Source of the DNA: Spiribacter halobius
GTDB lineage: Bacteria > Pseudomonadota > Gammaproteobacteria > Nitrococcales > Nitrococcaceae
DNA: 64,000 nt
Assembly: GCF_020883455.1 (NCBI RefSeq)
Contig: NZ_CP086615.1
Span: 1,488,001 to 1,552,000, forward strand
Direction of reading: 5' to 3'
Below are positions 41,401-56,430 of this stretch, piece by piece. Made by a program: the position numbers and the translations under genes. Within the stretch, counting starts at the first letter, position 1. The number at the start of each line of letters is the position of its first letter. Below the pieces are notes generated by a model. It saw only the letters and a program-made list of their open reading frames with translations, was not told the origin of the DNA and ran no database searches.

Positions 41401-41994
41401 CTGCAGGCCCAGGCCCTGCATGCGTTCCGGGTCGAAGCGCACCTGCAGCTCGCGGTCGCGCAGGCCGAAGCTGTCCACCCGCTCGACCTGGGAAAAGCGC
41501 TCCAGCTCATCGGCAATGCGGCGGGCGCGGGCCCGCAGGTTGCCGTCGTAGGCCTCGCCCACCACCAGCACCATCGCCGCGGGCTTGAAGTTGTCGCTGG
41601 TGGCCTCGATGAACACCGGCTGCTCGGCGGCGTCCGGCAGCTCCGAGCGTTCCGCCTGCACCTCGCGGCGCAGGTCGGTCAGGCGCTCGTCGAACTCGTC
41701 CTCGTCGAGGTCGCGGAAGCGCACCACGATGCGCGAGAACCCGGCACGGCTGTCGCTCGCCGAGAAGCGGATGTCCGGAATGCGGGCCACGGCGTCCTCC
41801 AGCACCTCCGTGACGCGTCGCTCCACGTCCCGGGCCGAGGCCCCAGGGTAGGTGGTCTGCACCTCCACCCAGTTGAAGTTGACCGAGGGATCCTGCTGGC
41901 GGGGCAGCAGCAGATAGGCGGCGCTGCCGGCCGCGAGCACCAGCACCATGGCCAGCGTGGCCAGGATGTGGTTGTCGATCAGGCGGCGGTACAT
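38494..41994 (-). CDS. RND efflux transporter permease with cytoplasmic C-terminal extension
   Basis: 1166 residues, longer than the usual 1020-1050. Twelve membrane spans in two halves, each with a large periplasmic loop; TM4 has the proton-relay acidic pair in GMLVDDAVVVVEAVYH. The N-terminal MYRRLIDNHILATLAMV and PRQQDPSVNFNWVEVQTTYPGAS match the AcrB-like branch of HAE1/RND pumps that use two-residue-different filter loops. Residues about 1045-1166 form an extra helical region with TPR-like spacing (DAYQTGCLALAAGRRQDALKQLQWVAERLP). One-base overlap with its adaptor gene. Substrate unknown; the pump would need a TolC-type channel from elsewhere. Confidence 0.93.
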   Translation of the reverse strand: MYRRLIDNHILATLAMVLVLAAGSAAYLLLPRQQDPSVNFNWVEVQTTYPGASARDVERRVTEVLEDAVARIPDIRFSASDSRAGFSRIVVRFRDLDEDEFDERLTDLRREVQAERSELPDAAEQPVFIEATSDNFKPAAMVLVVGEAYDGNLRARARRIADELERFSQVERVDSFGLRDRELQVRFDPERMQGLGLQPSALADTVSAYFRDVAAGTVGIGEQSWLVRFTGTANDPAYLGDLPIVAAAGEVPLRSVATVRQGFAEAEARIRHQGDPAVMLAVYRGADGNVLRLVDEISAYQEGVNAEAARTGVRMVLLDDRTGVTRNALAVMEGNALVGLGLVLVTTWLFLGGRIALLAALGIPFVLAGVFLLLLVLGYSLNVVVLLGIVISLGMLVDDAVVVVEAVYHRLVHGAESILEAVLGGLREVGAPVLAAVLTTSAAFLPLTLVPGVLGDFMRLAPIVVVCALALSLLEAFWMLPSHLLALRPNPAAGGRIQALRERWTRQLRLRYGRALVAALRRPRLTAITVLALFVAAIGVLQAGLLRVDFFATDSARLVYVDAELPAGTRLEKTLEVTRALEAAALGRLGDGELRRSASVAGVQFTDAEPLVGDEYGQVTLSLHPRTRGGRSVEAIVDDLRPQLAEIPGPTSLSFQQVTTGPPTEPPVNVKLRGDDLERLAAAADAMQSLLAEIPGVREIRDDDAPGRLEYRLRLDADAMVRTGLDPARVIRDIRLLVDGEIVASMQDQGDTLDVRVRADRDQLAGGIRDLGRSTLSLPDGRPVALSELVHSDTGRGRAVIRHYNFRRAISVQAELDEAVTDTVSVNRAIAERWAAGPAERFPDVQLDFTGELDDIQESLSSLALLFLAGTGLVYLILATQFRSYLQPLIILAAVPMAFTGVVFGLLASGSVLSLYTLYGVIALAGIAVNAGIVLVSTANTRARAGATPSQAIVLAARRRVVPVLITSLTTIAGLFALATGLAGESLIWGPVAASIVFGLAVSTPLTLFVTPLLYRPVAPRAEDPMAELPAPPLLERRRGLRGLLGRLRSGRSASPWRADLAALRADARTADAYQTGCLALAAGRRQDALKQLQWVAERLPESGLANRAAAQAALAVVEEMGWDEGYANRARRFLVRARRAAGDTPEIIALLRLYRRLASERGEEV

Positions 41995-43004
41995 CAGCGC
42001 CCGGTCACTTCCACGGCCATGCCGTCGCGCAGGGCGTAGCGGCCGTCACGGACGATGTCCGCCGACCCCTGCAGCCCGGGCACGGCCGCGGGCAGTCCGG
42101 CGACGGCCTCGTCCAGGGCGTGGTGGCGGGCGCGCCCGTCCTCGACCACGAACACGCCGAGGGTGCCGTCGCGCTCCACCAGCAGGTCGCTGGGTACGTG
42201 GGGCAGGGCGGCGGCCCAGTCGATGCGCCCGCTCTCACCCGGCAGCGGCGCCCTGCCGGTGGGCTCAAGCCGCACCTCGTAGCTGCGCAGCCGGCTCTCC
42301 AGCACCGGGATGACCCGGCGCAGGCGCAGTGGATAGCGCTCGCCGCGGCTGACGAAGTCCACGCTGGCCGCCCCCTCGAGGGCGTCCAGGTCCTGCTCCT
42401 GTACCCGGGCGCTGATCTCCAGCAGGCTGACGTCCACCAGCCGCACCAGGGGCGTGCCCGGCTCCGCCAGCTCGCCGACGCTCGCCAGCCGCTCGACCAC
42501 CACGGCGTCGAACGGCGCCCGCACCTCGCAGCGCTCGATGTCACGCTCGCCCCGACGCACCTCCGCGCCCCGCCGCCGGACCTCGGCCGCGGTGCGCAGT
42601 GCCTCGGCCTCGCGCTCGCGATAGGCCTCCAGCGGCATCGCGCCCCGGTCCCGCAGCTGAGCGCCGCGTTCGCGGCGGAACTCGGCCAGGTCGCGCTGCG
42701 CCTGGGCAGCGGCGAGGGCGGCGCGGCTCGCCTCGAGGGCGATCTCGATATCCCGGCAGTCGAGCCGGGCGAGGACCTCGTCGGCGTCGATCCGGTCCCC
42801 GGGGCGCACCGGCAGCGCCTGCACCTCGGCCCCCACCTGCGCGGCGACACGAGTGTCGTTGAGGCTGACGGCAGTGGCCGGGGCGCTGCGCACGGGGTAG
42901 AGCGCGATCGCGTCCAGACGCTCGACGGTAACGGGCAGCGCCTCCTGGGCGAGCGCCGCCGTCGCCCAGCTGGCCAGCAGCAGTAGCGGGAGTGCCTTGA
43001 TCAT
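41994..43004 (-). CDS. RND periplasmic adaptor (membrane fusion protein)
   Basis: 336 residues from the ATG at 43004, with GGAGG six bases upstream. Signal peptide 1-20 (ending ALAQ). Biotinyl-lipoyl halves VAAQVGAEVQALPVRPGDRIDADEVLARLD and CEVRAPFDAVVVERLASVGELAEPGTPL flank a coiled-coil hairpin (about 75-145). Beta-barrel and membrane-proximal domains follow. It bridges the inner-membrane pump to an outer-membrane channel. It ends in a one-base TGATG overlap with the pump. Confidence 0.93.
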   Translation of the reverse strand: MIKALPLLLLASWATAALAQEALPVTVERLDAIALYPVRSAPATAVSLNDTRVAAQVGAEVQALPVRPGDRIDADEVLARLDCRDIEIALEASRAALAAAQAQRDLAEFRRERGAQLRDRGAMPLEAYREREAEALRTAAEVRRRGAEVRRGERDIERCEVRAPFDAVVVERLASVGELAEPGTPLVRLVDVSLLEISARVQEQDLDALEGAASVDFVSRGERYPLRLRRVIPVLESRLRSYEVRLEPTGRAPLPGESGRIDWAAALPHVPSDLLVERDGTLGVFVVEDGRARHHALDEAVAGLPAAVPGLQGSADIVRDGRYALRDGMAVEVTGR

Positions 43005-43041
43005 GCCGGCCTCCATAGCCGTGGACAGGCTGTGGCCCGGC

Positions 43042-43467
43042 TCAGCCGCGGCCGCCGAGGGATTCCAGGCGCCGGCCATGCCATGGCGAGTGGTAGCGGA
43101 TGTCCCCGGGCGCATGGCTGATCACGCCGGACAGGAGTACCACGGCGATCAGCATGGCCGGCCCGCTCTGCGGCCAGCGCAGCGCCGCGACGAGCAGCAG
43201 CAGCTTCACGCCGATGGCAAGGCCGCGCAGCTGCAGCAGCCAGACGCCGTTGCTCCAGAGCTGCAGCGCCACCATGAGCACCCCGGTGATCACCGTCAGC
43301 CAGAGGTAGGCCTGCCACTGCGCGGGCGACACGCCGAACAGCATGCCCGCCCCGGCGCCGGCCGTGCCCACCAGGTGCAGGCTGCGCAGGGCGATGTTCA
43401 CCCAGCGCTTGCCCGCAAAGCTGCGGCTCTCGGGCGGAAAGAGGGTACGCAACAGGCTCTCGGCCAT
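43042..43467 (-). CDS. Hypothetical inner-membrane protein, four predicted spans
   Basis: 141 residues. Hydrophobic segments near 26-46, 53-72, 84-100 and 103-120, with a conserved-looking RSLHLVGTAGAGAG at the first span and HAPGDIRYHSPWHGRR at the C-terminus. The histidine in the first span and the RYHSPWHG end could bind haem or metal. I do not recognise a named family. Separated from the adaptor gene by 37 bases, so it may head the RND operon. Confidence 0.75.
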   Translation of the reverse strand: MAESLLRTLFPPESRSFAGKRWVNIALRSLHLVGTAGAGAGMLFGVSPAQWQAYLWLTVITGVLMVALQLWSNGVWLLQLRGLAIGVKLLLLVAALRWPQSGPAMLIAVVLLSGVISHAPGDIRYHSPWHGRRLESLGGRG

Positions 43468-43591
43468 GGCATCGGCTCGGCGCAGCGAAGGACGGCGGGA
43501 AACGGTAGCATGTCCGCATGACCGCGAAGACTAGGACATTGCCGGGCCTGCTGCTGCGACCCAGTCGGCGCCTGGGGCGCGGGGTTGCGCC

Positions 43592-44302
43592 ATGAGCGGG
43601 CCGTTGCCGGCGGATCTGCTGGCTGCGTTCCGGCGCTGCGCCGCCGGGCTCACGGGTCTGGACGAGGCCGCCTATGCCGCGGCCGGGCGCGACCCGCAGG
43701 AGCCGGTGATCGGTCTCGGCCCGCCGACGGCCCCGGTGGCCTTTTTCGGGCGCGACCCGGGGCGCGAGGAGCTCGTCCACGGTGTGCCCTTCATCGGCGC
43801 CGGCGGACGTCAGGTGCGCGGCGTGCTGCACCGCCGGCGCCACGGCACCGCGCTGGCAGGCACGGAACAGGCCATTGCCGCGGGCGCGGACTACTTCTGG
43901 GCCAACACCGTTCCCTACAAGCCGTTCGGCAACAAGGCCTGGTCCATGGCCGTGAAGCGGCGCTTCCAGCCGCTGGTGGCGCGGCTGCTGCTGGCCGCTT
44001 GGCAGGGCAGGCATGTCATCACGCTCGGCCGCGAGGCGTTCCTTTGGTTCGGGCTGGGGCAGCCGCCGGCGACCCGGCAGCGGCTCGCGGCGCACTGGGC
44101 GGATCCGGAGCGGTTCGGGACCTCGGTGAGCCTGGACTATGGGCTCGAGGGCGTGGGCAGCCGGCGCCTGTGCCTGCATCCGCTGCCGCATCCCTCGCCG
44201 CTCAACGCCACCTGGTATCGGCGCTTCCCCGGGCTGCTGGAGGCGCGGCTGGATGCGCTGGAGGCGGCGCCGACGCGGGCCGCCGGAGGCGGGCTGTCGT
44301 GA
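43592..44302 (+). CDS. Uracil-DNA glycosylase superfamily protein
   Basis: 236 residues. FFGRDPGREELVHGVPFIGAGGRQVR carries the GxxPG-type first motif (here GRDPGR) and HPSPLNATWYRRF is the second active-site motif of the UDG fold. WANTVPYKPFGNKAW is typical of family members annotated as UDG family proteins of unknown substrate. The first motif lacks the GQDPYH catalytic Asp spacing of family 1, so activity on uracil is unproven. Its stop overlaps the creatininase gene by four bases. Confidence 0.85.
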   Translation: MSGPLPADLLAAFRRCAAGLTGLDEAAYAAAGRDPQEPVIGLGPPTAPVAFFGRDPGREELVHGVPFIGAGGRQVRGVLHRRRHGTALAGTEQAIAAGADYFWANTVPYKPFGNKAWSMAVKRRFQPLVARLLLAAWQGRHVITLGREAFLWFGLGQPPATRQRLAAHWADPERFGTSVSLDYGLEGVGSRRLCLHPLPHPSPLNATWYRRFPGLLEARLDALEAAPTRAAGGGLS

Positions 44303-45090
44303 CCGTGCAGCGCTGGGGGGAGCTGACCAGTGCCGAGCTCGGCGCCGCCGCGGCCCGTGACCCGGTGGCCGTGCTGCCCCTGGCAGCCGTCGAGCAGCAC
44401 GGCCCGCATCTGCCGCTGGAGACCGACTGCATCATCGGCGAGGGCCTGCTGTCCGCGGCGGCGTGGCGCCTGCCCCCGGACTGCCCGGTGCTGCGCCTGC
44501 CCGTGCTGAGCGTCGGCGACAGCCTCGAGCACACGCGCTTCCCCGGCACCCTCAGCCTGGATCCCGAGACCTTCCAGCGCGTGGTGGTGGAGTGGGGCGC
44601 CGGGGTGGCGCGCGCCGGCGTCCGCCGGCTGCTGCTGTTCAGCAGCCACGGTGGCAATCTCGCCGGCGCCGACGTGGCTGCGCTGCGCCTGCGCCATGAC
44701 CACGGCCTGCTGGTGGTGCGGGGCAGCTATTTCCGCTTTCCGCCGCCGGCGGATGCACTGCCGGCCGAGGAGCTGCGCGTGGGCCTGCATGGCGGGGCGC
44801 TGGAGACGGCGCTGATGCTGCACCTGGCGCCGACGCAGGTGCGCCGCCGCGCCATTGCGCCGGCCGGTTCGCTGGACGAGACCCTGATCGGGACGAACCG
44901 CTGGCTGAGCGCCGAAGGGCCGGCCGGATTCGCGTGGATGGCCGGCGACCTTGCCCCAGGCGGGGTGACCGGCAACGCCGCCCTGGCCACGCCGGCCCTT
45001 GGCGAGCGGTTGGTGGCGCATTTTGCCGAGGCGCTGGCCGGGCTCATTGCGGAGACGCGCGCGTTCCCGCTCCAGGCGCTGCAGGGCTAG
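44299..45090 (+). CDS. Creatininase-family amidohydrolase
   Basis: 263 residues, GTG start overlapping the UDG stop. Metal-binding motifs of creatinine amidohydrolase: LPLAAVEQHGPHLPLETD (Glu and His ligands), HTRFPGTLSL, SSHGGN and VGLHGGALETALML (final Glu). Relatives include creatininase, MftE, and the archaeal ArfB that deformylates a riboflavin/F420 intermediate. The next genes encode GTP cyclohydrolase II and a RibD reductase, so a hydrolytic step on a GTP-derived pyrimidine is a reasonable guess, not shown. Confidence 0.9.
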   Translation: MTVQRWGELTSAELGAAAARDPVAVLPLAAVEQHGPHLPLETDCIIGEGLLSAAAWRLPPDCPVLRLPVLSVGDSLEHTRFPGTLSLDPETFQRVVVEWGAGVARAGVRRLLLFSSHGGNLAGADVAALRLRHDHGLLVVRGSYFRFPPPADALPAEELRVGLHGGALETALMLHLAPTQVRRRAIAPAGSLDETLIGTNRWLSAEGPAGFAWMAGDLAPGGVTGNAALATPALGERLVAHFAEALAGLIAETRAFPLQALQG

Positions 45091-45097
45091 CTAGTGT

Positions 45098-45130
45098 CTG
45101 GCCCGCGTATCTCACCGATTCACGGCTGCG
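45098..45130. repeat. Left-end fragment of a family 1 element
   Basis: CCCGCGTATCTCACCGATTC followed by ACGGCTGCG matches the left end of the elements at 2859 and 5218; there is no right end. The fragment plus downstream bases also makes a hairpin CACGGCTG/CAGCCGTG that reaches the ribA stop (45137), so it may now act as a terminator between the convergent creatininase and ribA genes. Confidence 0.7.
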
Positions 45131-45136
45131 GGCCGG

Positions 45137-46252
45137 TCAGCCGTGCATGGCCTCAGTGCGCAGCACCTCCGCCAGCCAGTGCCCCGAGCGTTCCGCCTTG
45201 GCGGTCAGATAGCGCCGGTTGTGGACCGTGAGCTGACCGTGCAGGGCGTCGCGCCCAACCACCTCGATCCCGCCCTGCTGCAGGGCGCTGATCTTCTCAG
45301 GGTTGTTGGTGAGCAGACGGATACGGCGCACGCCCAGGTCCTCGAGCATGGCCACGGCCGCGTCGTAGCGGCGCTCGTCCTCCCCGAAGCCGAGCATGCG
45401 ATCGGCGTCGACGGTATCGAGGCCATCGTCCTGCAGGCCGTAGGCGCGAAGCTTGTTGGCGAGCCCGATGCCGCGCCCCTCCTGCGCCAGATACAGCAGG
45501 ATGCCACCGCCAGCGCGGGAGATGGCGGCGACGCCGCTGCGCAGCTGCTCACCGCAGTCGCAGCGCAGGCTGCCGAAGAGGTCGCCGGTAAGGCAGGCGG
45601 AGTGCAGGCGCACCGGCAGCGGATCGGGCCATTCTTCCGGCTCCCCGATCACCACCGCCACATGCTCCAGCAGCCCGTCGGTCTCGCGGTAGAGCACGAA
45701 GCGGCTTGCCTCCGCGCCCTCCAGCGGTACCCGGGCGTCACTGACGCGCACCGGGCGAACGCCCCGGTCGCTGGCGGCCTCCAGCGCACTGTGCGCCGGC
45801 ACGCTCAGCATCGTGCTCTGCTCGATGAGGCGGCCGAGCGTGCCTTGCGGGCGGGCCGCTACACTCACTGTCGCGACGGCGGGGAGCAGCCGCCCGGCGC
45901 GGGCCAGGGCGAGGGCCGCCCGCTGGGCGGTGTTCGCGGGCCGGCACGGCCCGGGGACGTCCTCCGGCGGGTTGCCGGCGGCCGCGGCGAGGGCCAGCAG
46001 ACGCCGGCAGTCGGCAGCCGGGCCGGGATCGACGGCCACACAGTCGGCGGAGCCGGCGTCAACCCCGAGTACGGAGGCACGGTGCGCGGTCAGGGTCAGT
46101 TGCAGATGCTCGTCGCTGAGGCGGCGCAGGCCCGCCAGGGCCGGATCGTCCAGGGCCTCAACCGGCAGCGCGATGACCGCACTGCGGCCATTGCGGATAT
46201 GAACCGGCTGTCCGCGACGAAGATCGAACAGGGCGCGATCTGTACCGTGCAT
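45137..46252 (-). CDS. ribA: GTP cyclohydrolase II with an unusual N-terminal domain
   Basis: 371 residues from the ATG at 46252 (GGAGG four bases upstream). The C-terminal ~200 residues are GTP cyclohydrolase II: zinc cysteines in SACLTGDLFGSLRCDCGEQL, LAQEGRGIGLANKL, and LLTNNPEKI. It converts GTP to 2,5-diamino-6-ribosylamino-4(3H)-pyrimidinone 5'-phosphate, formate and PPi. The first ~160 residues occupy the place of DHBP synthase (RibB) in RibBA, but the RibB acidic and histidine motifs are absent, so it is a degenerate or different domain. Divergent from the RibD-like gene. Confidence 0.92.
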   Translation of the reverse strand: MHGTDRALFDLRRGQPVHIRNGRSAVIALPVEALDDPALAGLRRLSDEHLQLTLTAHRASVLGVDAGSADCVAVDPGPAADCRRLLALAAAAGNPPEDVPGPCRPANTAQRAALALARAGRLLPAVATVSVAARPQGTLGRLIEQSTMLSVPAHSALEAASDRGVRPVRVSDARVPLEGAEASRFVLYRETDGLLEHVAVVIGEPEEWPDPLPVRLHSACLTGDLFGSLRCDCGEQLRSGVAAISRAGGGILLYLAQEGRGIGLANKLRAYGLQDDGLDTVDADRMLGFGEDERRYDAAVAMLEDLGVRRIRLLTNNPEKISALQQGGIEVVGRDALHGQLTVHNRRYLTAKAERSGHWLAEVLRTEAMHG

Positions 46253-46281
46253 GGCACCTCCCGTGTGTCGGCGTCCTGCAA

Positions 46282-46308
46282 TGGACCACGGCAGGTTGAA
46301 ACAATTCC
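46282..46308 (-). promoter_or_regulatory. Possible ECF-sigma-type promoter of ribA
   Basis: Minus strand GGAATT (46308-46303), 16 bases, GTCCA (46286-46282), resembling the GGAACTT-N16-GTCTAA pattern of group 4 sigma factors. Only two short matches, so weak evidence. Confidence 0.22.
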
Positions 46309-46345
46309 GCCATCTACACGTGGCTGCCCCGACGGGCGGTGAACG

Positions 46346-47218
46346 ATGCGCACTGACGACGACACGGCCTGGCGGCTGCTGCTCGCCCTCGCGGAAACCC
46401 CGGCCGCCGGCGATGGCATGCGCGAGGCCCGCCACGGCGAGGCCCTGCTCGCCGTGACGGGCGACGGCAGCTGGCGCTGCGAGCCGGATCCGGACGCGGC
46501 GGCTGCGACGCTGCTGGATCTTTACCTGCCGGTCTGCGCACCCCCGGGGCAGCGGTTCGCCCTCGCCCAGCTCGGGCAGAGCCTGGACGGCCGCATCGCC
46601 ACGCCCAGCGGGCACTCGCACTACGTCACCGGGGAGGCCGACCGCCGCCATCTGCACCGGCTGCGGGCGCTGGTGGATGCCGTGGTGGTTGGACCCGGCA
46701 CCGTGGCCGCGGACGATCCCCGGCTCACGGTACGCAGCGTCCCAGGGCCGAACCCGGTGCGGGTGGTGCTGGATCCGCGGGGCGCGCTGCCGGAGTCCAG
46801 CAGCGTCTACCGCGACCGGGCGGCGGCCACTCTGCGCATCGCGCCGCCGGGCGTTGCGGCGCTGCCTGGGGTCGAGCAGCTTGCGCTGGACTCACCCGGG
46901 CCGGCCGAGATTCTCGCCGCCCTGGCCGGGCGGGGGCTGCACCGGGTGCTGGTGGAGGGTGGCGGACGCACGGTCTCCGCCTTCCTTGCCGCCGGCGTGC
47001 TGGACCGACTGCACGTCACCGTGGCGCCGGTGCTCATTGGCTCCGGCCGCCCTGCGTTATCCCTACCGGAGATCGCCACCATGCAGGAGGCCCTGCGGCC
47101 GCCGACGCGGCGGTTCCCGCTGGGGGAGGACCTGCTGTTCGACCTTGCTCTGGCTAACGGCGCATCAGGAACAGGGCACCCGGCAGGCTCGCGATCAGTA
47201 CCACCGCGCCGTAGGTGA
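46346..47218 (+). CDS. Stand-alone RibD C-terminal (pyrimidine reductase) domain protein
   Basis: 290 residues. The DHFR-like reductase fold of RibD-C: FALAQLGQSLDGRIAT, VTGEADRRHLHRLRALVDAVVVGPGTV, DDPRLTVR, then VLVEGGGRTVSAFLAAGVLDRLHVTVAPVLIGSG. No zinc deaminase domain (no HAE/CxxC motifs); the first 65 residues are a different short domain. It would reduce the ribosyl group to ribityl with NADPH. Its last ~18 residues run 65 bases into the 3' end of the convergent flippase gene. Divergent from ribA, so the two may be co-regulated. Confidence 0.88.
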   Translation: MRTDDDTAWRLLLALAETPAAGDGMREARHGEALLAVTGDGSWRCEPDPDAAAATLLDLYLPVCAPPGQRFALAQLGQSLDGRIATPSGHSHYVTGEADRRHLHRLRALVDAVVVGPGTVAADDPRLTVRSVPGPNPVRVVLDPRGALPESSSVYRDRAAATLRIAPPGVAALPGVEQLALDSPGPAEILAALAGRGLHRVLVEGGGRTVSAFLAAGVLDRLHVTVAPVLIGSGRPALSLPEIATMQEALRPPTRRFPLGEDLLFDLALANGASGTGHPAGSRSVPPRRR

Positions 47219-48038
47219 CCGACGCCGCCACCCCGTCGGCGGCGGGCAGGCCGGCCAGTGGCCAGAGCAGCGCGGCGACGCCCTCGCGCAGCCCCCAGCC
47301 GGCGAAGCCGACGGGGATGAGCATGGCGAGCAGCACCAGCGGGATGAGCGGCAGCCAGTCCGCAGGCGCCCCCTCGATGCCGAGCGCCAGCGCGGCCAGC
47401 GCGAACACCCCGACGTAGCTCAGCGCCACCGCGAGCGAGGCCAGCAGCTGCACCGGCAGCACGGCGGGGCGCAGCAGCGCACGCCGGGCGTCGGCAAGCC
47501 AGGGCCGCAGCCAGGGCCGCCGGCGCAGACCGAAGGCGAGCCCTCCGAGCAGCAGCGCCGCGGCGGCGGCGCCGCCGCCGGCCCGGGCGAAGCCGGGCGG
47601 CAGCGCGGCCGCCTGCGGGCCCAGGCCGGACAGCAGCGCGGCCAGCACCAGAACGGCCATGGCGAGCTGGCCCGAGGCGCGTTCCAGGACCACGGCCCGC
47701 ACCGCCGGCCCGGGCTGCGCCGCATCCCGGGCGTGGCGCCAGGCGCGGCGGGCGTCGCCCAGCACACCGCCCGGCAGCGTCTGGTTCAGCAGGGTCGCCA
47801 CGTAGTACTCGCGCACCGCCGTGGCAAGGCCGAGCGGCAGGCCGAGACAGCGCGCCGTGTAGCGCCAGCGCCAGGCGGATAGCAGCACCTGGCCCACGGT
47901 CACGGCGAACGCGGCAGCCACCCAGGCGGGGGACAGCGCCGCCAGGCGGTCGGCGAGGGCCGTTGCGTCCAGCTGGGCGACGACGATGGCCAGCAGCGCG
48001 AGGCTGCTGCCGACCCGGACCCACGGCAGGCCGGTCAT
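47154..48038 (-). CDS. Lysylphosphatidylglycerol synthase/flippase-type membrane protein (UPF0104)
   Basis: 294 residues, seven to eight membrane segments. The AWRWRYTARCLGLPLGL segment and the NQTLPGGVLGDARRAWRHARD loop are the UPF0104/MprF-flippase and AglD-like signature. The family includes lipid flippases and membrane helpers of glycosyl transfer. Last gene of the five-gene minus-strand operon (dehydrogenase, PTPS-like, GT4, methyltransferase, this), overlapping the methyltransferase by four bases. Suggests that the pathway's product, or a precursor, crosses or sits in the membrane. Confidence 0.87.
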   Translation of the reverse strand: MTGLPWVRVGSSLALLAIVVAQLDATALADRLAALSPAWVAAAFAVTVGQVLLSAWRWRYTARCLGLPLGLATAVREYYVATLLNQTLPGGVLGDARRAWRHARDAAQPGPAVRAVVLERASGQLAMAVLVLAALLSGLGPQAAALPPGFARAGGGAAAAALLLGGLAFGLRRRPWLRPWLADARRALLRPAVLPVQLLASLAVALSYVGVFALAALALGIEGAPADWLPLIPLVLLAMLIPVGFAGWGLREGVAALLWPLAGLPAADGVAASVTYGAVVLIASLPGALFLMRR

Positions 48039-48841
48039 GGCACCGCGCCCGCCGGCAACGCCAGCACGTCCCGATGGCCCACGGTGACGCTACCCGCCGC
48101 CTTCCGGCGCCCGGCCCAGGCGCGAAACCGGTCCGCCGCCGCCGGCGCCTGCTCGCAGGCGGCGGCCACCCAGCCGTCGATCAGGGCATGGATGAGCGGG
48201 GCGTCCGCGGGGCCGAGCTGCCAGGGGCTGTCGGCCACGACCACCTCGCAACCGCTGGCGCGGAAGGCCGCGGCAGCGGTTTCCCACGCGGCCGGGCCCA
48301 GGGCCGGACCAAAGCCCTTGTCGCCCTGCTGATGTGCATTCAAGGCCGTGCGCAGACGCTCGTCGTCGGGGTCGGTGTCCGGCCACTGGATGCATCCGTC
48401 GTAGCTGAGGGCGAGCAGTGCCGGTACGCCGCGGGCGGCGCAGCCGTCGGCGAGGCGCTGCAGCCACTCCGCCGAGACGAGGTCCAGCAGCGCCGCTGCG
48501 GTCACCAGCTGCGCCTCGTCCAGCGCCCCCGGCAGGGCGCGGTCCAGGTCCGCGATCTCCCCGGCGAAAGTCACGGCGGTACCGTCGGCGGCCTGGGACG
48601 GAGCCGCGACGCCGGCGAGCAGCCGGTGGTCGTGATCCAGCAGCCGCCAGTGTTGCGGCCCGCGCAGGCGGGAGGCCAGATAGCGCAGGTTGCTGCCGCG
48701 GCCGGCGCCGAGGTCGAGAATGGTCAGCGGCCCGGTGGCGGGAAGATGCGCCCGCAGCCGGGGCAGGAGCCCGGCCGCGCGGGCGCGGTGGTCCGCCCCC
48801 TCGCGCAGGGCAAGCCAGTCCGCGGCGAAGGCCTCAGCCAT
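48035..48841 (-). CDS. Class I SAM-dependent methyltransferase
   Basis: 268 residues from the ATG at 48841. Motif I LTILDLGAGRGSNLRYLA, then LLDHDHRLLAG (motif II, ribose-binding acidic residue) and LVTAAALLDLVSAEWLQRL (motif post-II/III). The C-terminal half (PLIHALIDGWVAAACEQAPAAADRFRAWAGRR) is not a recognised substrate domain. The protein overlaps the glycosyltransferase gene by eight bases and the membrane protein gene by four, so translation is probably coupled. Target unknown. Confidence 0.88.
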   Translation of the reverse strand: MAEAFAADWLALREGADHRARAAGLLPRLRAHLPATGPLTILDLGAGRGSNLRYLASRLRGPQHWRLLDHDHRLLAGVAAPSQAADGTAVTFAGEIADLDRALPGALDEAQLVTAAALLDLVSAEWLQRLADGCAARGVPALLALSYDGCIQWPDTDPDDERLRTALNAHQQGDKGFGPALGPAAWETAAAAFRASGCEVVVADSPWQLGPADAPLIHALIDGWVAAACEQAPAAADRFRAWAGRRKAAGSVTVGHRDVLALPAGAVP

Positions 48842-49895
48842 CACCGGCCACCCCGCGCACCACCTCGGCAAAGCGCCGTGCGGCCTCGGGCCAGTCCGGC
48901 AGTGTCCGGCGCGCGCTGGCCGCGCCATCGGCCAGCTGCCGTCGCCGCGCCGGGTCGCGGATCAGCTCGGCGAGGGCCGCGGCCAGGGCGTCGGCGGCGC
49001 CCGCCGGCACGCTGACGCCGGCGCCCTCGGGCAGGGCCTCGGCCAGGGCGCCGCCGTCGGTGGTCACCACCGGCAGGGCGTGGGCAATGGCCTCGGCCAC
49101 GGCCATGCCGTAGCCCTCGTAGCGGGAAGGGAGCACGAACAGATCCGCCTCGTGATAGTGCCCGGCGAGGGCCTCCGGGGGTACTGGCCCGCACAGGCAC
49201 AGGCGCCCGCCGAGCCCGGCGCCGTCGATGGCAGCGGCCACCTCGGCGGCGAAGCCCGGCGCCTGGTCCAGCCGGCCGATGCAGTCGCAGCGCCAGGGCA
49301 GTTCCCGCAGCTGCGCCAGCGCCGCGACCAGCACGTCCTGGCCCTTGCGCGGGATCACGGCGCCGACGCAGAGCAGCCTCGGCGTGCCCCCGTCGCCGCC
49401 GGCGGCGACGGGGGCCGGATCGGTGCCCGGTGGCGCCACCCCCGCCGGACGCGGGTACAGATCCAGGGCCTGCAGCCGGCGTGCGGTGAAGGGGCTGGTC
49501 ACCACCACCCCGCGCACGGCAGCCAGGGACCGGCGCTCGGCGTCGAGCAGCGCGGCGTGCGCCGCCGCGTCCAGCCCCGACTCGTCCGCCAGCGGATGGT
49601 GTACCAGCGCGACCAGGCGCAGCCGCTTGGCGTGGCGTTCGGTGATGGCCGCGGCGTCCCCCAGGGCGAGGCCGTCGATCAGCGTCACGCGTCCGGCGGG
49701 GATGGCGGCGAGGGCGGCCTCCAGTCCGCTGCGGGCGGCGGCATCGGTGCGCGGAAACCGTCCGGGAAGCCCGTGCACGGTCACGGGCTGGCCCTGGGCG
49801 CGTAGCCCCTCGACCATGCGGCGGTCGTAGCGCGTGCCGCCGGTGACCACCTCGAGACCGCCAGGGACCAGCAGATGCCAGGGGGTGGGGGTCAC
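48834..49895 (-). CDS. GT4 family glycosyltransferase
   Basis: 353 residues, GT-B fold. N-terminal domain with [26 protein letters not shown]-terminal donor site with [15 protein letters not shown] and the EX7E-type ending [36 protein letters not shown]. Retaining transferase from a nucleotide sugar. Four-base overlap with the PTPS-like gene and eight with the methyltransferase, so the sugar transfer belongs to the same pathway. Confidence 0.93.
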
Positions 49896-50290
49896 AGCGG
49901 CCGTTCGTAGGCGGCCCAGGCGACGTGGGACTCGTGCAGCGTGACCCGGATGCGCTCGAGGCCCTGGGCGCCGTCACCGAGCTGGCCCGCCCTGACGGCG
50001 TCGGCGAGGCGGTCGGCGACGTGCCGGGCGAGAAACTCGGTGGTGGTGTTGTGCCCGGCGAAGGCGGGCTCGTCATCCAGGTTGCGCAGGTTCAGGGCGC
50101 CCAGCGTCCCGCGCAGGAGGTCGGTCGCCCGGGCGATGTCCACGACCATGCCGTTGGCGTCCAGCTCGGCGCGCTGGAAGGTGGCGTCCACCACATACGT
50201 GGCCCCGTGCAGCTGCTGGGCCGGGCCGAAGGCCTCGCCGCGGAAGCTGTGGGCGATCATGAAATGGTCACGGACGTTGACGCTGAACAT
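49892..50290 (-). CDS. PTPS/QueD-like protein with altered catalytic residues
   Basis: 132 residues, T-fold like 6-pyruvoyl-tetrahydropterin and 6-carboxy-tetrahydropterin synthases. Present: first zinc histidine (MIAHSF, His14), second (LHGATY, His28) and the glutamate in VTLHES. Changed: the third zinc histidine of the HGH motif is Ala30 and the catalytic cysteine position four before His28 is Ala24. Asn-rich LNLRNLDD and the [14 protein letters not shown] helix match the family. It therefore probably does not do the standard QueD reaction; it may bind a related pterin or catalyse a different step. Overlaps GT4 by four bases. Confidence 0.85.
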
Positions 50291-50305
50291 GGTGCTCCTC
50301 GGCGG

Positions 50306-51292
50306 TCAGTCAGTTTCGGCGGCGGGGTAGCGCACGCGATGGCAGAGGCCGGCCCCGGCGAGTACCCGGGGCAGCGTCTGCGGCAGATCGGCGAAGTCGC
50401 TCTCACCGTCGATCAGCGCTTCCCACTCCGGGTGGCAGGCGAGCAGGGCGAGGGCGAGGTCGAGGCGACGGGCGTGATCCCAGCGCGGGCGCTCGGCGGC
50501 TGCGATCTGGCCCACCTGGCTGGCGCGCAGGGTGAGCCGGCGGGCGTGAAAACCCTCGCCGAGCGGCAGGCTTATCTCGCGGTCGCCGAACCAGCTGAGC
50601 TCCACCACCTCGCCCTCGTTGCCGGCGAGCGCCAGGGCCTGGCGCAGCCCGGCCTCGCTGCCGCTGGCATGCAGGACGCGATCGGCGGGGCCGCGCACGG
50701 CGTCCGGACTGCTGAACGGTACCCCGAGGCGGCCGGCCAGGGCCGCGCGCGCCGGGTTGACGTCCACCAGCTGCACGTCGCTGCCGGGCAGTGACGCGCA
50801 CAGGGCCGCGACCAGGCAGCCCACCACGCCGGCGCCGATGATGACGATGCGCTCGCCGACCCGCGGGGCGGCGTCCCACAGGCCGTTTACAGCGGTCTCG
50901 ACGTTGGCGGCAAGCACGGCGCGCCCGGGCGGCAGGTCCGGCGGCAGCGGCCGCGCCGCGCCGACGGGGACGACGTAACGATCCTGATGCGGATGCAGGC
51001 AGAACACCGTGCGCCCGCGCAGGGCCTCCGGGCCGGCCTCCACGATGCCGACGCTGGCATAGCCGTACTTGACCGGCGCCGGGAAATCCCCCTCCTGGAA
51101 CGGTGCCCGCATGGCGGCATGCTGGCTCTCCGGCACGCCGCCGCGGTACACCAGCGCCTCCGTCCCCCGGCTCACCCCGGTATAGAGCGTGCGCACGAGC
51201 ACCTCGTCCGTCCCGGGATCGGCGAGGGCCTGACGCCGCAGGGCCACCTCACCGGGCGCGGTGATCCAGAGGGCGTAGGCGGTCTCGGCCAT
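50306..51292 (-). CDS. Zinc-type MDR dehydrogenase (threonine dehydrogenase-like)
   Basis: 328 residues from the ATG at 51292 (AGGAG five bases upstream). MDR fold: GVSRGTEALVYRGGVPESQ near the N-terminus, then a Rossmann domain with VIIGAGVVGCLVAALCASLPG (GxGxxG) and VQLVDVNPARAALA. The catalytic-zinc cysteine of classical ADHs (position of GVSRGTE) is a Ser, as in the bacteriochlorophyll C8/BchC-like and related 2-desacetyl-type dehydrogenases. NAD(P)H oxidoreductase on a secondary alcohol. First gene of the five-gene operon, 15 bases before the PTPS-like gene. Confidence 0.87.
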   Translation of the reverse strand: MAETAYALWITAPGEVALRRQALADPGTDEVLVRTLYTGVSRGTEALVYRGGVPESQHAAMRAPFQEGDFPAPVKYGYASVGIVEAGPEALRGRTVFCLHPHQDRYVVPVGAARPLPPDLPPGRAVLAANVETAVNGLWDAAPRVGERIVIIGAGVVGCLVAALCASLPGSDVQLVDVNPARAALAGRLGVPFSSPDAVRGPADRVLHASGSEAGLRQALALAGNEGEVVELSWFGDREISLPLGEGFHARRLTLRASQVGQIAAAERPRWDHARRLDLALALLACHPEWEALIDGESDFADLPQTLPRVLAGAGLCHRVRYPAAETD

Positions 51293-51378
51293 GAAGACTC
51301 CTCGCACAGGGCGGATGGAACCCGCATCCGCGGGCCGCGGTCGACTCCGACAGTGAACGACTGCAGGTTGACCTGTCG

Positions 51379-52116
51379 ATGGCCGCAAGCGCCGCAAGTT
51401 CCAGCCTGGCACGCGTACTCGCAGACCTCGCCGTCGCCGGTGCCGGCGTGGTGGCGCTCGCCTGGGCGGTGGCGGTGCTGGCGGCCCTGCCCGGGGTCAG
51501 CGTGCTGGCGGCCCTGGCGGCCTATGGTCTGGTGGCGCTGCCGCTGGGGCACTGGCATCGCGGATGGCCGCTGACGCCGGCGGACCGCATCACCCTGGCG
51601 CGGGCGGTGCCGGTGGCGCTGCTCGCCGGCCTGCTGCCCTGGAACGATGTCCTCGCCCCCACGGCCTGGTTCCTCGTAGCAGTGGCGGCGCTGGCGCTGG
51701 CCGCGGACGGCCTGGATGGCGCCGTCGCGCGGCGTACCGGTACCGCCACGGCGGCGGGGGCGCGCTTCGACATGGAGCTTGACGCCGCCTTCCTGCTGGT
51801 GCTCTGCGCCTGGCTGGTGGCGCTGGACAGGACCGACGCCTGGGTGCTCGGGATCGGTCTGCTGCGCTATCTGTTCCTGGCTGCCGGCGTCGTCTGGCCG
51901 CGTCTGCAGGCGCCACTGCCGCCGTCGTTCCGGCGGCGGCTGGTCTGTGCCCTGCAGGGTGTGGTGCTGGTGGCGTGTCTGGCGCCGCCGATGGCCGGCC
52001 TCGCCGTGCCGCTCGCGGCTCTGGCGCTCGTTCTGCTGATCTATTCTTTCGGGGCCGATGTGCTCTGGCTCAGTCGCCGGCCGGCCCCCACGGAGAGGGA
52101 GGCGCATCATGCCTAG
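51379..52116 (+). CDS. CDP-alcohol phosphatidyltransferase family membrane protein
   Basis: 245 residues, about six membrane segments. The complete CDP-AP motif D(x2)DG(x2)AR(x8)G(x3)D(x3)D is present with Asp110, Asp113, Asp131 and Asp135. It transfers a phospho-alcohol from a CDP-activated donor to an alcohol. It is divergent from the dehydrogenase operon (86 bases between starts) and overlaps YceI by eight bases. It could make a headgroup or a phosphodiester-linked form of the pathway product; substrate not evident. Confidence 0.92.
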   Translation: MAASAASSSLARVLADLAVAGAGVVALAWAVAVLAALPGVSVLAALAAYGLVALPLGHWHRGWPLTPADRITLARAVPVALLAGLLPWNDVLAPTAWFLVAVAALALAADGLDGAVARRTGTATAAGARFDMELDAAFLLVLCAWLVALDRTDAWVLGIGLLRYLFLAAGVVWPRLQAPLPPSFRRRLVCALQGVVLVACLAPPMAGLAVPLAALALVLLIYSFGADVLWLSRRPAPTEREAHHA

Positions 52117-52696
52117 AGCGTGCCTGATGGCGGCCGCACTGGTGCCGGCTGTGGTGGCCGGTACGGCGGCGGCCGAACCGCAACGTTTCGTTATCGACGA
52201 GTCCCACGTATCGGTGGGCTTTCTCGCCGGGCATGCGCGTTTCGCCGACGTGCTCGGGCAGTTCACGGAGGTCGAGGGTGAATTCGTCTACGACGAGGCA
52301 GACCGCTCACTGGAGTCCGGCCGCGTCGTGGTCGCGGCGGACAGCGTCTATACCGCGCACGAGGACCGCGACGGCCACCTGCGCGACGGTGACTTCCTGG
52401 CCGTGGACGAACACCCCGAGATTGTCTTCACCGCCACCGGTTACGAGCCGGACGGTGACGATGGCGGGACGCTGCGCGGGGAGCTGACCCTGCTCGGCAC
52501 CACGCGCCCGCTGACCCTCGACCTGACCATCAACCGCATCGGCGAGCATCCCATCGGCGGCGCCTACACCCTGGGTGCCTCGGCACGGGGCAGCCTGCAG
52601 CGCAGCGAGTTCGGCATGGACTATGCGCTGGAGGACGATCTGGTCAGCGACCGCATCGATCTCATCATCGAATTCGAGGCCATTCGCGAGGACTGA
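52109..52696 (+). CDS. YceI family periplasmic lipid-binding protein
   Basis: 195 residues from the ATG at 52109 (GGAGG seven bases upstream). Signal peptide 1-22 (ending AAAEP). Lipocalin-like YceI barrel: FVIDESHVSVGFLAGHARFADVLGQFTEVEGEF, VVVAADSVYTAHEDRDGHLRDGDFLAVDEHPEIVFTAT and the C-terminal RSEFGMDYALEDDLVSDRIDLIIEFEA. YceI proteins bind polyisoprenoids or fatty amides. Eight-base overlap with the CDP-alcohol transferase gene suggests that the two products act on or with the same lipid. Confidence 0.94.
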   Translation: MPRACLMAAALVPAVVAGTAAAEPQRFVIDESHVSVGFLAGHARFADVLGQFTEVEGEFVYDEADRSLESGRVVVAADSVYTAHEDRDGHLRDGDFLAVDEHPEIVFTATGYEPDGDDGGTLRGELTLLGTTRPLTLDLTINRIGEHPIGGAYTLGASARGSLQRSEFGMDYALEDDLVSDRIDLIIEFEAIRED

Positions 52697-52742
52697 ATCC
52701 CCGCAAGCCCGGCAGCTGAATAACAACCTTCAAGGAGTCCCC

Positions 52743-53381
52743 ATGGCCGACTACATCCTCTACGGAACTCCGCTCAGCACCTACGTGCGTACCGTGCGCA
52801 TGGCCTTCACCGAGAAGGGCGTGGACTACCAGCTGGCCGACGTGAACATCTTCCGCGGCGAGCATCAGTCTGAGGCCTATCTGGCCCGCCACCCCTTCGG
52901 CAAGGTGCCTGCGCTGGAGGCTGGCGACCTGTCGCTGTTCGAGACGGCGGCGATCCTGGAGCTCATCGAGGGCCGCCATCCGAAGCCCCCGCTCCAGCCC
53001 GCGCAGGCCGAGCCACGGGCGCTGATGCGCCAGTGGCAGAACGTGGTGGACCACTACGTCTACCCGACACTGATCGGGCAGGTGGTCTGGCAGCGGGTGG
53101 TGCGGCCGAACCTGCTCAACGAGGGGACCGACGAAGTGGTCGTCGAGCGGGCCATGCCCGCCGCCCGTCGGCAGATGCACCTGCTGGAACGCCATCTTGG
53201 AGGCGCGCGCTGGCTCTCCGGCGACACCATCGGCATCGCCGATCTCTACCTTGCGCCGATCATGGCGTATTTCTCCCAGACCCCCGAGGGGCGTGGCGTT
53301 CTGTCGGAAGCGCCAGCGCTGGGCCGATGGTGGGAGCACATCTCCGACCGGGAGAGCTTCACTGCTACCCAGCCGGGCTGA
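52743..53381 (+). CDS. Glutathione S-transferase family protein
   Basis: 212 residues with AAGGAG six bases before the ATG. N-terminal thioredoxin-fold domain (YILYGTPLSTYVRTVRMAFTEKGVDYQ, HPFGKVPALE, FETAAILELIE) and C-terminal helical domain. The first-helix Ser/Thr in TPLSTYV is the likely glutathione-activating residue. Detoxification or reductive conjugation; substrate unknown. Starts 46 bases after YceI, so possibly the same transcript. Confidence 0.92.
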   Translation: MADYILYGTPLSTYVRTVRMAFTEKGVDYQLADVNIFRGEHQSEAYLARHPFGKVPALEAGDLSLFETAAILELIEGRHPKPPLQPAQAEPRALMRQWQNVVDHYVYPTLIGQVVWQRVVRPNLLNEGTDEVVVERAMPAARRQMHLLERHLGGARWLSGDTIGIADLYLAPIMAYFSQTPEGRGVLSEAPALGRWWEHISDRESFTATQPG

Positions 53382-53527
53382 GATGGCCGCGGACCGGCGC
53401 TCCGGGGGCTAGCGGCGTCCTGTCAGGTCTCAGCGGGCCGATCCAGAGCCCCGAGGGCTGGCGATACGCTCGATGGGAGTCGCGTGGCAGGCGGGTAATT
53501 GGCGGTGATTTTTCCTGTCCCAACGAA

Positions 53528-53552
53528 AACGCCCGGCGCGAGGCCGGGCGTT
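53528..53552 (-). terminator. Intrinsic terminator of the RRM gene
   Basis: Perfect 10-bp stem AACGCCCGGC/GCCGGGCGTT (53528-53537, 53543-53552). On the minus strand a T-run (TTTTCG) follows directly, as expected after the stop codon at 53578. Confidence 0.9.
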
Positions 53553-53577
53553 CGGTGGGGTCAACCCGACCCGCCGC

Positions 53578-53862
53578 TTACCAGCGGCGGCCCTGACCCT
53601 GGCGGGGACCGGAGCCGCCGGCCCGCTCCTGCGCCTCGTTGATCCGCAGCGAGCGACCGCCGAGATCGGTGCCGTTGAGCCCCTCGATCGCCTTCTCGGC
53701 GTCGCTGGAACCCATGGTCACGAAACCGAAACCGCGCGGGCGGCCGGTGTCGCGATCGGAGATCAGTCGCACGGACTCGACGTCGCCATAGGCGGCGAAG
53801 AGGTCGCGGACCTCGTCCTCGGAGGCGGTGAAGGGCAGGTTACCCACGTAAATCGAAGTCAT
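53578..53862 (-). CDS. Single-RRM RNA-binding protein
   Basis: 94 residues from the ATG at 53862. One RRM domain: RNP2 IYVGNL at residues 4-9 and RNP1 RGFGFVTM near 43-50, with a short Gly/Arg/Gln tail (GGSGPRQGQGRRW) typical of cyanobacterial and proteobacterial Rbp proteins, often cold-induced. No clear Shine-Dalgarno; a GTG at 53874 is an alternative. A terminator follows, so a single-gene transcript. The stretch 53863-54169 is its leader and the promoter region shared with the patatin gene; it has several small GC hairpins, but no element I can name. Confidence 0.93.
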   Translation of the reverse strand: MTSIYVGNLPFTASEDEVRDLFAAYGDVESVRLISDRDTGRPRGFGFVTMGSSDAEKAIEGLNGTDLGGRSLRINEAQERAGGSGPRQGQGRRW

Positions 53863-54169
53863 AGGATCGTTCACACTCAGACATCTGTGTCGTAGACCGG
53901 CCGCCATAGGGCGGTCCGGCGCGCATCCGGGGCGACCACACGGCCCACCCGGCAGGGTCGTTGACCTGTCGCCACTGGAAACCCTGAGACGCTGTGGGGC
54001 GGATGCCCCGGAGTCGGCGGGAAGCAGAAGGCAAGCGGTGCCTGACCTGCCGTGGACAATATCCCAGCCGCCTTCCCACCGCAAGCGTTTTTTTTACCGC
54101 CACCGGCGGTGGCCGGACGGTGCCTCGTCACGCTGGCGGTGGGCCCGCCGCCGGTGCCAGAATCCTGCC

Positions 54170-55171
54170 ATGGCTAAGCCCTCGTCACGCAGGCTGCGCG
54201 TGGGCCTCGCCCTCGGCGGCGGGGCCGCCCGCGGCTGGGCGCACGTCGGCGTCATCCGCGGCCTCGAGGAGGCCGGTATCGTGCCGGACGTGGTAGCCGG
54301 GACCTCGGTGGGCGCCATCGTCGGGGCCATGTACTGCAGCGGGCACCTCGACGGCTTCGAGCACTGGGTGCGCCGGCTCGGGCGGCGGGAGATGCTGAGC
54401 TATCTCGACCTCGCCATGGCGAGCGGGGGCTTCTTCGAGGGCCGGCGGCTGGCGGATCGCTTTCGCAACGCCCTCGGCGATCTGGACTTCGAGGCCCTGC
54501 GCATCCCCCTCGGCATCGTCGCCACCGACCTATACAGTGGCCATGAGCGGTGGCTGCGCAGCGGCGATGTCTGCTCGGCGATCCGCGCCTCCATCTCCCT
54601 GCCGGGGCTGTTCACACCGGTGCGCCACGATGGCGAGTGGCTGGTGGACGGCGGGCTGGTGAACCCGGTGCCGGTCTCGCTGTGCCATGCCATGGGCGCG
54701 GACATCGTCATCGCCGTGAACCTGAACGGCGGGCTCGTCGGCCGTCATCTGCGACGGGAGGAGCCGGCGGAACCGGAACGACCGGATGCGACCTCCGGCG
54801 AGGGGCCGGCGACCTCCATCGAAGGCTGGTTCGAGCGGCTCTCCAGCGGCCTGCGGGATCGTGCCGGGCTGCTGCCGGCCCAGTTCCGGCGGGGGTCCGC
54901 CGAGTCGGCGCCGGGGCTGTTCGACGTCATCGCCACGGCGGTCAACGTCATGCAGGATCGGATCACGCGCAGCCGCATGGCGGGGGATCCGCCGGAGCTG
55001 CTGATCAGCCCGCGCCTCGCGCACATCGCGCTGCTCGAGTTCTACCGCGCCGCGGAGGCGATCGAGGAAGGCCATCAGGCGGTACGGCGGCTGCAGCCGG
55101 CGGTAAACGAGCTGGCCGATCAGCTGGGTGTGGCACCGCGACAGAGCGAGCAAACAGGAGAGGCGCCATGA
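54170..55171 (+). CDS. Patatin-like phospholipase (RssA family)
   Basis: 333 residues from the ATG at 54170. Catalytic dyad: GTSVG (GxSxG) serine near residue 43 and DGG aspartate in WLVDGGLVNPVPV. Oxyanion loop GGGAARGWAHVGV at the start. Cytoplasmic or peripheral membrane lipase/esterase acting on acyl lipids. Stop overlaps the next gene (ATGA). The final ~100 residues (DVIATAVNVMQDRI, LEFYRAAEAIEEG) are family-typical. Confidence 0.94.
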   Translation: MAKPSSRRLRVGLALGGGAARGWAHVGVIRGLEEAGIVPDVVAGTSVGAIVGAMYCSGHLDGFEHWVRRLGRREMLSYLDLAMASGGFFEGRRLADRFRNALGDLDFEALRIPLGIVATDLYSGHERWLRSGDVCSAIRASISLPGLFTPVRHDGEWLVDGGLVNPVPVSLCHAMGADIVIAVNLNGGLVGRHLRREEPAEPERPDATSGEGPATSIEGWFERLSSGLRDRAGLLPAQFRRGSAESAPGLFDVIATAVNVMQDRITRSRMAGDPPELLISPRLAHIALLEFYRAAEAIEEGHQAVRRLQPAVNELADQLGVAPRQSEQTGEAP

Positions 55172-55746: not shown

Positions 55747-55817
55747 GCGCGCACCAGCCGCATGGGCCGGCGCGGCCACCGGCCAGCCGCTGGCAGGTGC
55801 CATAACGAGGAACTGCC

Positions 55818-56288: not shown

Positions 56289-56309
56289 GCCGCGTGGCGG
56301 CTCAGTAGG
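56281..56309. terminator. Hairpin that includes the CoA-binding gene's stop codon
   Basis: Perfect 13-bp stem (56281-56293 with 56297-56309) and a GTG loop; the TGA stop (56286-56288) is inside the left arm. A TAGTTTT follows about five bases later. It can be a terminator or an mRNA 3'-end protector. Confidence 0.6.
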
Positions 56310-56330
56310 GAAGGTAGTTTTCAGTCGGCA

Positions 56331-56416: not shown

Positions 56417-56430
56417 TCGGAGCGAAGCTC

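Follow-up and report, generated by a model that had tools for sequence, protein, structure and literature searches.

The question raised by positions 43592-52696 of a 64,000-nucleotide stretch of Spiribacter halobius DNA (contig NZ_CP086615.1, positions 1,488,001 to 1,552,000; hereafter the window) is what might be made by genes that place riboflavin-type enzymes beside a glycosyltransferase and membrane proteins. By open reading frames and Pfam/NCBIfam searches, the interval carries eleven intact genes, namely the ten listed in an initial annotation, all of them intact and in the families claimed under both databases, plus a uracil-DNA glycosylase gene. On balance, we favour the reading that these genes form a dedicated biosynthetic cluster leading from guanosine triphosphate (GTP) to a glycoconjugate that is possibly bound to the envelope, and that the cluster has probably spread by transfer.

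At the centre lies an inner operon on the minus strand, running from 51292 down to 47154. It encodes a medium-chain dehydrogenase with an SRGTE motif (MDR, 50306-51292; NCBIfam bchC 47.4 bits, cut-off 291), a PTPS-like T-fold protein of the SCO6650 type (PTPS, 49892-50290; PF01242, E 8e-25), a GT4 glycosyltransferase (48834-49895; PF13692, E 1.5e-27), a predicted class I S-adenosylmethionine methyltransferase (MT, 48035-48844; Pfam 23.7 bits, cut-off 27, together with its predicted structure) and an LPG_synthase_TM or flippase-like membrane protein (LPGTM, 47154-48038; PF03706, E 3e-35). Overlaps of 4 bp (LPGTM/MT), 11 bp (MT/GT4) and 4 bp (GT4/PTPS) fit the earlier description of five tightly overlapping genes at three junctions, whereas PTPS and MDR lie 15 bp apart. 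Divergent from the operon, a CDP-alcohol phosphatidyltransferase gene (CDPOH, 51379-52116, plus strand; PF01066, E 1.4e-11) starts 86 bp from MDR. At the other end, a RibD reductase gene with an N-terminal extension (RIBDC, 46346-47218, plus strand; RibD_C, E 1.2e-38) overlaps LPGTM by 65 bp at their 3′ ends and starts 93 bp from the divergent gene for GTP cyclohydrolase II (GCH2, 45137-46252, minus strand; PF00925, E 2.6e-56), beyond which lies a creatininase-family amidohydrolase gene that is a candidate BrbF-like deformylase (CREA, 44299-45090, plus strand; PF02633, E 9.7e-61).

The initial annotation had staked its proposal on conservation beyond this strain, and the cluster recurs in 144 non-redundant loci across Pseudomonadota, Actinomycetota, Acidobacteriota and Gemmatimonadota. 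These loci remained from 153 after we dropped three on contigs already counted, five shorter than 9 kb and one identical duplicate; in a scan of named genomes, 80 loci were taken of 375 stretches encoding a PTPS relative. By profile searches over the 144 loci, PTPS (by construction) and MDR are present in all, GT4 in 143 and MT in 133, followed by CDPOH (114), RIBDC (113), LPGTM (92), GCH2 (86) and CREA (54), with YceI-family genes in 34 of 69 Pseudomonadota loci and 0 of 75 others. Absences number 30 for CDPOH, 52 for LPGTM, 90 for CREA and 110 for YceI. For the dedicated route from GTP to a glycosylated membrane compound proposed earlier, the GTP start, the separateness from riboflavin synthesis and the linkage in four phyla hold up, whereas glycosylation, methylation and membrane linkage of the product stay putative. 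Comparing the similarity matrix of MDR with those of each of eight other members gave correlations of r 0.64-0.85, reached by 0 of 200 permutations for any pair, with shared species history behind part of them.

Evenly sampled genomes contained PTPS (E 1e-20) in 27 of 398 Pseudomonadota (host included), 10 of 396 Actinomycetota, 7 of 199 Acidobacteriota and 18 of 200 Gemmatimonadota, the centre genome being counted in each of the last three. In a further search of 59 genomes, PTPS matched closely (E ≤1.7e-49) in 23, host included, and only weakly and distantly in six more. The core is plasmid-borne in Streptomyces fungicidicus, S. globisporus, Rhizobium sp. SL42, Methylosinus trichosporium OB3b and Candidatus Thiodictyon syntrophicum. 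Because occurrence is patchy yet identity is high across phyla, these distributions suggest spread by transfer, and genes present in four phyla, on plasmids and, by a close PTPS copy, in 13 of 14 relatives with small genomes (group g2, 1.2-2.2 Mb, the exception being 74% complete) are expected to yield a product of value to many bacteria.

As to riboflavin synthesis, the host genome, a single 4.17-Mb contig, has two GTP cyclohydrolase II domains besides GCH2. Lumazine synthase (RibH) lies at 3.1146 Mb and the RibD with the best RibD_C score in the genome at 3.1175 Mb, and between them (3.11-3.12 Mb) stand a RibBA frame and a RibE-like frame whose N-terminal FTGIVQ motif we take to be a riboflavin-synthase mark. 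A separate ribA is located at ~3.419 Mb, and it is probably this gene that supplies the riboflavin cyclohydrolase step, because by alignment the host RibBA (L168:6567-7745, about 3.1156-3.1167 Mb) lacks the three zinc cysteines in its cyclohydrolase half. RibD_C also matched weakly (43 bits) at a third place, 2463879-2464523 on the minus strand. Within the interval itself we found no deaminase, RibB, RibE or RibH and hence no riboflavin operon, RibD_C was the only domain found in RIBDC, as the earlier description of a reductase-only RibD without deaminase had it, and a search of 40000-57000 against RNA families (E ≤0.1) returned no flavin mononucleotide (FMN) riboswitch and nothing at gathering score, which upholds the earlier statement on the riboswitch. 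The accompanying statement that lumazine and riboflavin synthases are lacking is true of the interval and not of the genome. Since the host has a separate riboflavin pathway, it is well supported that the window genes are a dedicated second set; an ordinary riboflavin operon is ruled out by the rib genes at 3.11-3.12 Mb and ribA at 3.42 Mb, and the view that this is not ordinary riboflavin synthesis is borne out.

Conserved linkage, active-site states and, in Actinomycetota, a rule connecting a GCH2 switch residue with CREA are what the sequences let us observe, and from these we infer every reaction, their order and the product. Gene content supports a GTP origin, in that GCH2 would open GTP to diamino-ribosylamino-pyrimidinone phosphate as a putative first step. 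Residues C220, C231 and C233, which we take to be the zinc cysteines, and D292 and R294, presumably the catalytic Asp and Arg, are present in 86 of 86 GCH2 copies, as expected of a GTP cyclohydrolase II. Tyr271 of the window enzyme aligns with E. coli Tyr105, a position we assume to be the switch at which enzymes without Tyr form the formylamino product (FAPy), and SCO6655 reportedly has Met there and, when assayed, stops at that product. The window enzyme, with Tyr271 and an N-terminal extension of ~165 amino acids, is unlike SCO6655 and is not of this FAPy-forming type. GCH2 proteins of non-actinomycetes measure 368-385 amino acids and many Actinomycetota frames 216-280, with starts uncurated; a degenerate RibB was considered for the extension, for which the alignment to 4i14 begins at residue 104 and that to host RibBA is poor.

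Evaluating the switch across loci, we found Tyr in 74 of 86 GCH2 copies, the exceptions being 12 of 42 in Actinomycetota (Met 6, His 4, Leu 2) and 0 of 44 elsewhere. Among Actinomycetota, CREA accompanies GCH2 without Tyr in 12 of 12 cases and GCH2 with Tyr in 0 of 30 (Fisher p 9e-11, a value that ignores relatedness), and three GCH2-bearing loci among eight plasmid loci agree, with Met plus CREA in L214 and L215 and Tyr without CREA in the non-actinomycete L212. Because CREA presence tracks GCH2 without Tyr in Actinomycetota, these patterns suggest a two-step formylamino route in one actinomycete cluster type, in which GCH2 would halt once the formylamino intermediate has formed, leaving the removal of formate to the creatininase-family enzyme. 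CREA retains residues that we presume to be metal ligands, E32, H34 and D43 in 53 of 54 copies (one gap) and H117 and E169 in 54 of 54. The creatininase-family enzyme BrbF deformylates the formylamino-pyrimidine of riboflavin synthesis, the same compound on which CREA would act, and in the available portion of that report BrbF has no sequence similarity to archaeal ArfB and its matching bacterial cyclohydrolase is said to be yet to be discovered (PMC9478397). The earlier description of CREA as a relative of the ArfB deformylase finds no support there, and actinomycete CREA with GCH2 lacking Tyr becomes a candidate pairing of a BrbF-type formamidase with its matching cyclohydrolase.

For the second step, we propose that RIBDC would convert the ribosyl chain to a ribityl chain without deamination. 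Its nearest solved relative (6p8c, E 1.8e-28) is by name a 2,5-diamino-6-ribosylamino-4(3H)-pyrimidinone 5′-phosphate reductase, the substrate thus being, by that name, a compound not yet deaminated. By family, this GTP opening followed by a reductase-only RibD would be shared with the archaeal and fungal early riboflavin pathway (ArfB; reductase before deaminase), whereas the window cluster lacks the deaminase, RibB, RibE and RibH.

In a third step, the PTPS-like protein would bind the 2-amino-4-oxo ring and, with MDR, remodel it, possibly to a pterin. Its sole solved-structure match at E 0.001 was S. coelicolor SCO6650 (3d7j_A, E 1.3e-54, 132 of 132 residues), deposited as 'Uncharacterized protein' (3D7J), and this full-length homology together with PF01242 places it in the PTPS superfamily. 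The 2008 paper on the SCO6650 structure is said to describe no zinc, no triad and a pterin-type pocket. In every one of the 144 copies Ala24 stands at the catalytic Cys position and Ala30 at a zinc His position (the second His of HGH), so that the Ala24/Ala30 signature noted earlier proved invariant, and H14, H28, G29, T84, E85 and E120 are likewise kept in all 144, the substrate-anchoring Glu among them. We assume for this Glu and the Thr-Glu pair the ring-binding roles they have in the family. The window-type protein belongs to the same Pfam family as QueD and PTPS-I to III and keeps their Thr-Glu pair and the Glu that binds the ring, whereas the catalytic Cys and third zinc His are Ala in the cluster copies; its motif, AQxxHGA, is none of the CxxxHGH, CxxxxxHGH or ExxHGH given for PTPS-I, II and III of COG0720 in a 2016 review, where PTPS-V is described as a subfamily of unclear function (PMC5041015). 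QueD identity, and with it a role in queuosine synthesis, is ruled out by this active-site motif. Of 15 rows listed for public plasmid records, 10 give the protein the name 6-carboxytetrahydropterin synthase, and the annotated records examined carry a queuosine Gene Ontology term (e.g., L210:9001-9405, L212:8001-8399, L214:9001-9399). Because the active-site residues are replaced, the queuosine label is unsupported and is probably a mis-annotation, exposing a recurring error in which SCO6650-type proteins are called QueD, while the cluster gives SCO6650 a likely substrate class, partners and a laboratory host.

Zinc alcohol dehydrogenases typically have Cys and His ligands for the catalytic zinc. 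MDR has Ser at the expected Cys in 143 of 144 copies (SRGTE, a motif placed by eye), so that it is not a zinc alcohol dehydrogenase by its ligands, and it bears a weak likeness to BchC. Glycosylation by GT4 and methylation by MT would make up a fourth step. The AlphaFold model of MT (predicted local distance difference test score, pLDDT, 95.4) matched 3mgg best (VIA Z 19.0, root-mean-square deviation (rmsd) 3.3, 233 aligned), and we read it from this model as a class I methyltransferase without an informative close relative. SCO6652 would be its S. coelicolor counterpart as judged from gene order and numbering. In a table of a differentiation transcriptome, SCO6652 is given the values 0.8, 4.3 and 4.1 (PMC3610822).

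A glycosylated, envelope- or membrane-linked product is a plausible guess from the remaining genes. In a fifth step, CDPOH and LPGTM would, in most clusters, deliver the product to the membrane or periplasm or make use of it there, helped in fewer than half of clusters by an LtaS-like phosphotransferase and in fewer still by MdoH/MdoG, FkbM, cytochrome b561 or YceI. CDPOH D110, D113, G114, A117, R118, G127 and D131 are present in 114 of 114 copies and D135 in 113, which satisfies in full what we take to be the CDP-alcohol phosphatidyltransferase signature (DxxDGxxARx8GxxxDxxxD). New here is the recurrence near the cluster of a sulfatase-family membrane gene (SULF, 62 of 144 loci), FkbM (36), MdoH (22), cytochrome b561 (18) and MdoG (15), which points to the envelope, although SULF, MdoH and MdoG are all absent from beside the window cluster. 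In Gemmatimonadota SULF lies beside FkbM, cytochrome b561 or MdoG, and in the majority of actinomycete and Variovorax-type examples it is next or close to CDPOH. A sequence search of solved structures gave no match for SULF, and a model (L104, pLDDT 89) resembled LtaS (Z 21.5, rmsd 4.0, 275 aligned) and full-length EptA (Z 19.2, rmsd 7.2, 437 aligned). With LtaS/LtaP, GacH and EptA as nearest folds (Z 19-21.5) and plain sulfatases at ~18, the reaction class is left unfixed; predicted membrane helices and an alkaline-phosphatase-type fold are those of the LtaS/OpgB/EptA group of phospho-alcohol transferases. MdoH-like genes occur in 13 of 69 Pseudomonadota and 9 of 18 Gemmatimonadota loci, 22 against ~0.84 expected over these 87 if two copies per 3.8 Mb were placed at random. 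Family matches are strong in L149 (MdoG Pfam E 4e-192; MdoH NCBIfam 829 bits), mdoH is divergent from MDR in M. trichosporium OB3b, and in seven Gemmatimonadota genomes, picked for an MdoG near the cluster, that MdoG is the only one.

Several observations weigh against the biosynthetic route as we propose it. Loci were gathered with a PTPS query, many as best matches, and Micromonospora and Variovorax are heavily represented among them, so that the fractions given are not population frequencies. GCH2 is missing from 58 and RIBDC from 31 of the 144 loci. Of the eight plasmid loci, examined from 20 records, three carry PTPS alone with no other cluster member (L211, L216, L217), possibly as a captured copy with another role; these are Streptomyces plasmids, on which the gene (9001-9426) lies near MBL-fold, cupin, BTAD regulator and sigma-70 genes. 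Outside Actinomycetota, all 44 GCH2 copies have Tyr and are not expected to need a deformylase, yet 31 of their loci, the window included, carry CREA, and a universal rule that the creatininase occurs only with GCH2 lacking Tyr is rejected in favour of one holding in Actinomycetota only; beside a Tyr-type GCH2, CREA may have been left over, may act as a safeguard or may be an amidase of another kind. Finally, MdoG is missing in 6 of 27 genomes examined, including three that are near relatives and carry the cluster (G001, G006, G014), and the host's two MdoG genes, at 2.06 and 3.51 Mb, are away from the cluster. Because of these last two findings, the glucan is not essential and is at most one use of the product, and as a general statement the glucan as end point was discarded.

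Among other explanations, a plain soluble cofactor or secondary metabolite such as a pterin glycoside is one we hold to be unlikely; under it, the glucan genes, CDPOH, LPGTM and the LtaS-like protein would be unrelated envelope functions sharing the same islands. Pterin glycosides are known in cyanobacteria, the near relatives without MdoG would fit, and L160, L162, L165 and L167, Pseudomonadota of a class other than the window's, have the core with RIBDC and GCH2 and lack CDPOH, LPGTM and SULF, all four having an MdoH-like gene. However, CDPOH is kept in 114 of 144 loci across the four phyla with a divergence that tracks MDR (r 0.78), and LPGTM, with which the overlapping operon of the window ends, tracks MDR most closely of all members (r 0.85).

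We entertain with considerable doubt a more specific product, a nucleobase-headed phospholipid, in which the ribityl 5′-phosphate on an aminopyrimidine or pterin would be the CDPOH acceptor and be joined to lipid, GT4 and MT would decorate the head, LPGTM would flip the molecule and the LtaS-like protein would, in some clusters, pass the phospho-head to periplasmic glucan. CDP-alcohol transferases accept glycerol phosphate in PgsA and inositol phosphate in PIP synthase; the polyol-phosphate acceptor is an idea without structural support, as the solved-structure search with CDPOH gave marginal matches only (E ≥0.058). If real, such a molecule would define a new class of envelope lipid with redox or light activity.

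Returning to the riboflavin-type chemistries of GCH2, RIBDC and CREA, these could instead form a spare or regulated riboflavin or flavin-secretion branch, as proposed for BrbF/RibBA in Sinorhizobium, feeding ordinary rib enzymes elsewhere while the rest serves another purpose; two flavin modules in one bacterium are argued for in PMC9478397. We judge this improbable, seeing that RIBDC is found with the MDR-PTPS-GT4 core in more loci than GCH2 is (113 versus 86 of 144), that no rib gene was among the annotated recurrent extra families (the loci were not each searched for rib profiles), and that SCO6655 expression in S. coelicolor is listed as anticorrelated with predicted riboflavin flux (r -0.61) in PMC2853524. 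Very improbable is a core that makes or modifies a lipid-linked sugar with the GTP-derived part minor or regulatory, for which GT4, the flippase-like protein, CDPOH, the LtaS-like protein, MdoH/MdoG and FkbM would by family be enough to build an envelope glycan, but against which stand the ring-binding Glu kept in every PTPS copy and the pairing of MDR with PTPS at all 144 loci, even those without envelope genes.

The favoured route from GTP to a glycoconjugate has its closest known relatives in the SCO6650-SCO6655 genes. In L179, where PTPS matches 3D7J at E 2.1e-78, the order CDPOH, MDR, PTPS, GT4, MT, LPGTM, CREA, GCH2 would fit that numbering, and GCH2 has Met at the switch position, as we presume for SCO6655, whereas the window has RIBDC between GCH2 and LPGTM and YceI after CDPOH. 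The initial annotation had called the pathway undescribed, and we found no account of the cluster or its product in the literature searched, from which subscription journals were largely outside; the structure of SCO6650, however, had already been solved, and an assay of SCO6655 is reported. This is a real and widely spread cluster of known kinds of parts, an orphan pathway, in which pyrimidine or pterin chemistry meets genes for envelope glycans and lipids, a combination we did not come across in that literature.

Among minor features, 12 loci, mostly Variovorax, have beyond the cluster a conserved membrane-type protein that matches no Pfam family (for instance L063:14555-15421). A probably secreted protein (working name OPGGa) lies beyond FkbM and MdoH in three Pseudomonadota loci of a class other than the window's (L165:13840-14952, L166:13962-14951, L167:13659-14669, the L167 copy with no Pfam match), and it is counted outside the 15 MdoG and inside a separate OPGG count of 9. 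A mir-24 match between 40000 and 57000, far under gathering score, was taken as chance. The accessory YceI-family gene (52109-52696, plus strand; NCBIfam NF002994, E 4.1e-33, 114.7 bits, cut-off 232) closes one end of the interval, and the uracil-DNA glycosylase gene absent from the earlier list (43592-44302), whose end overlaps CREA by 4 bp, closes the other; a uracil-DNA glycosylase-like gene was also found in 10 of the first 100 loci.

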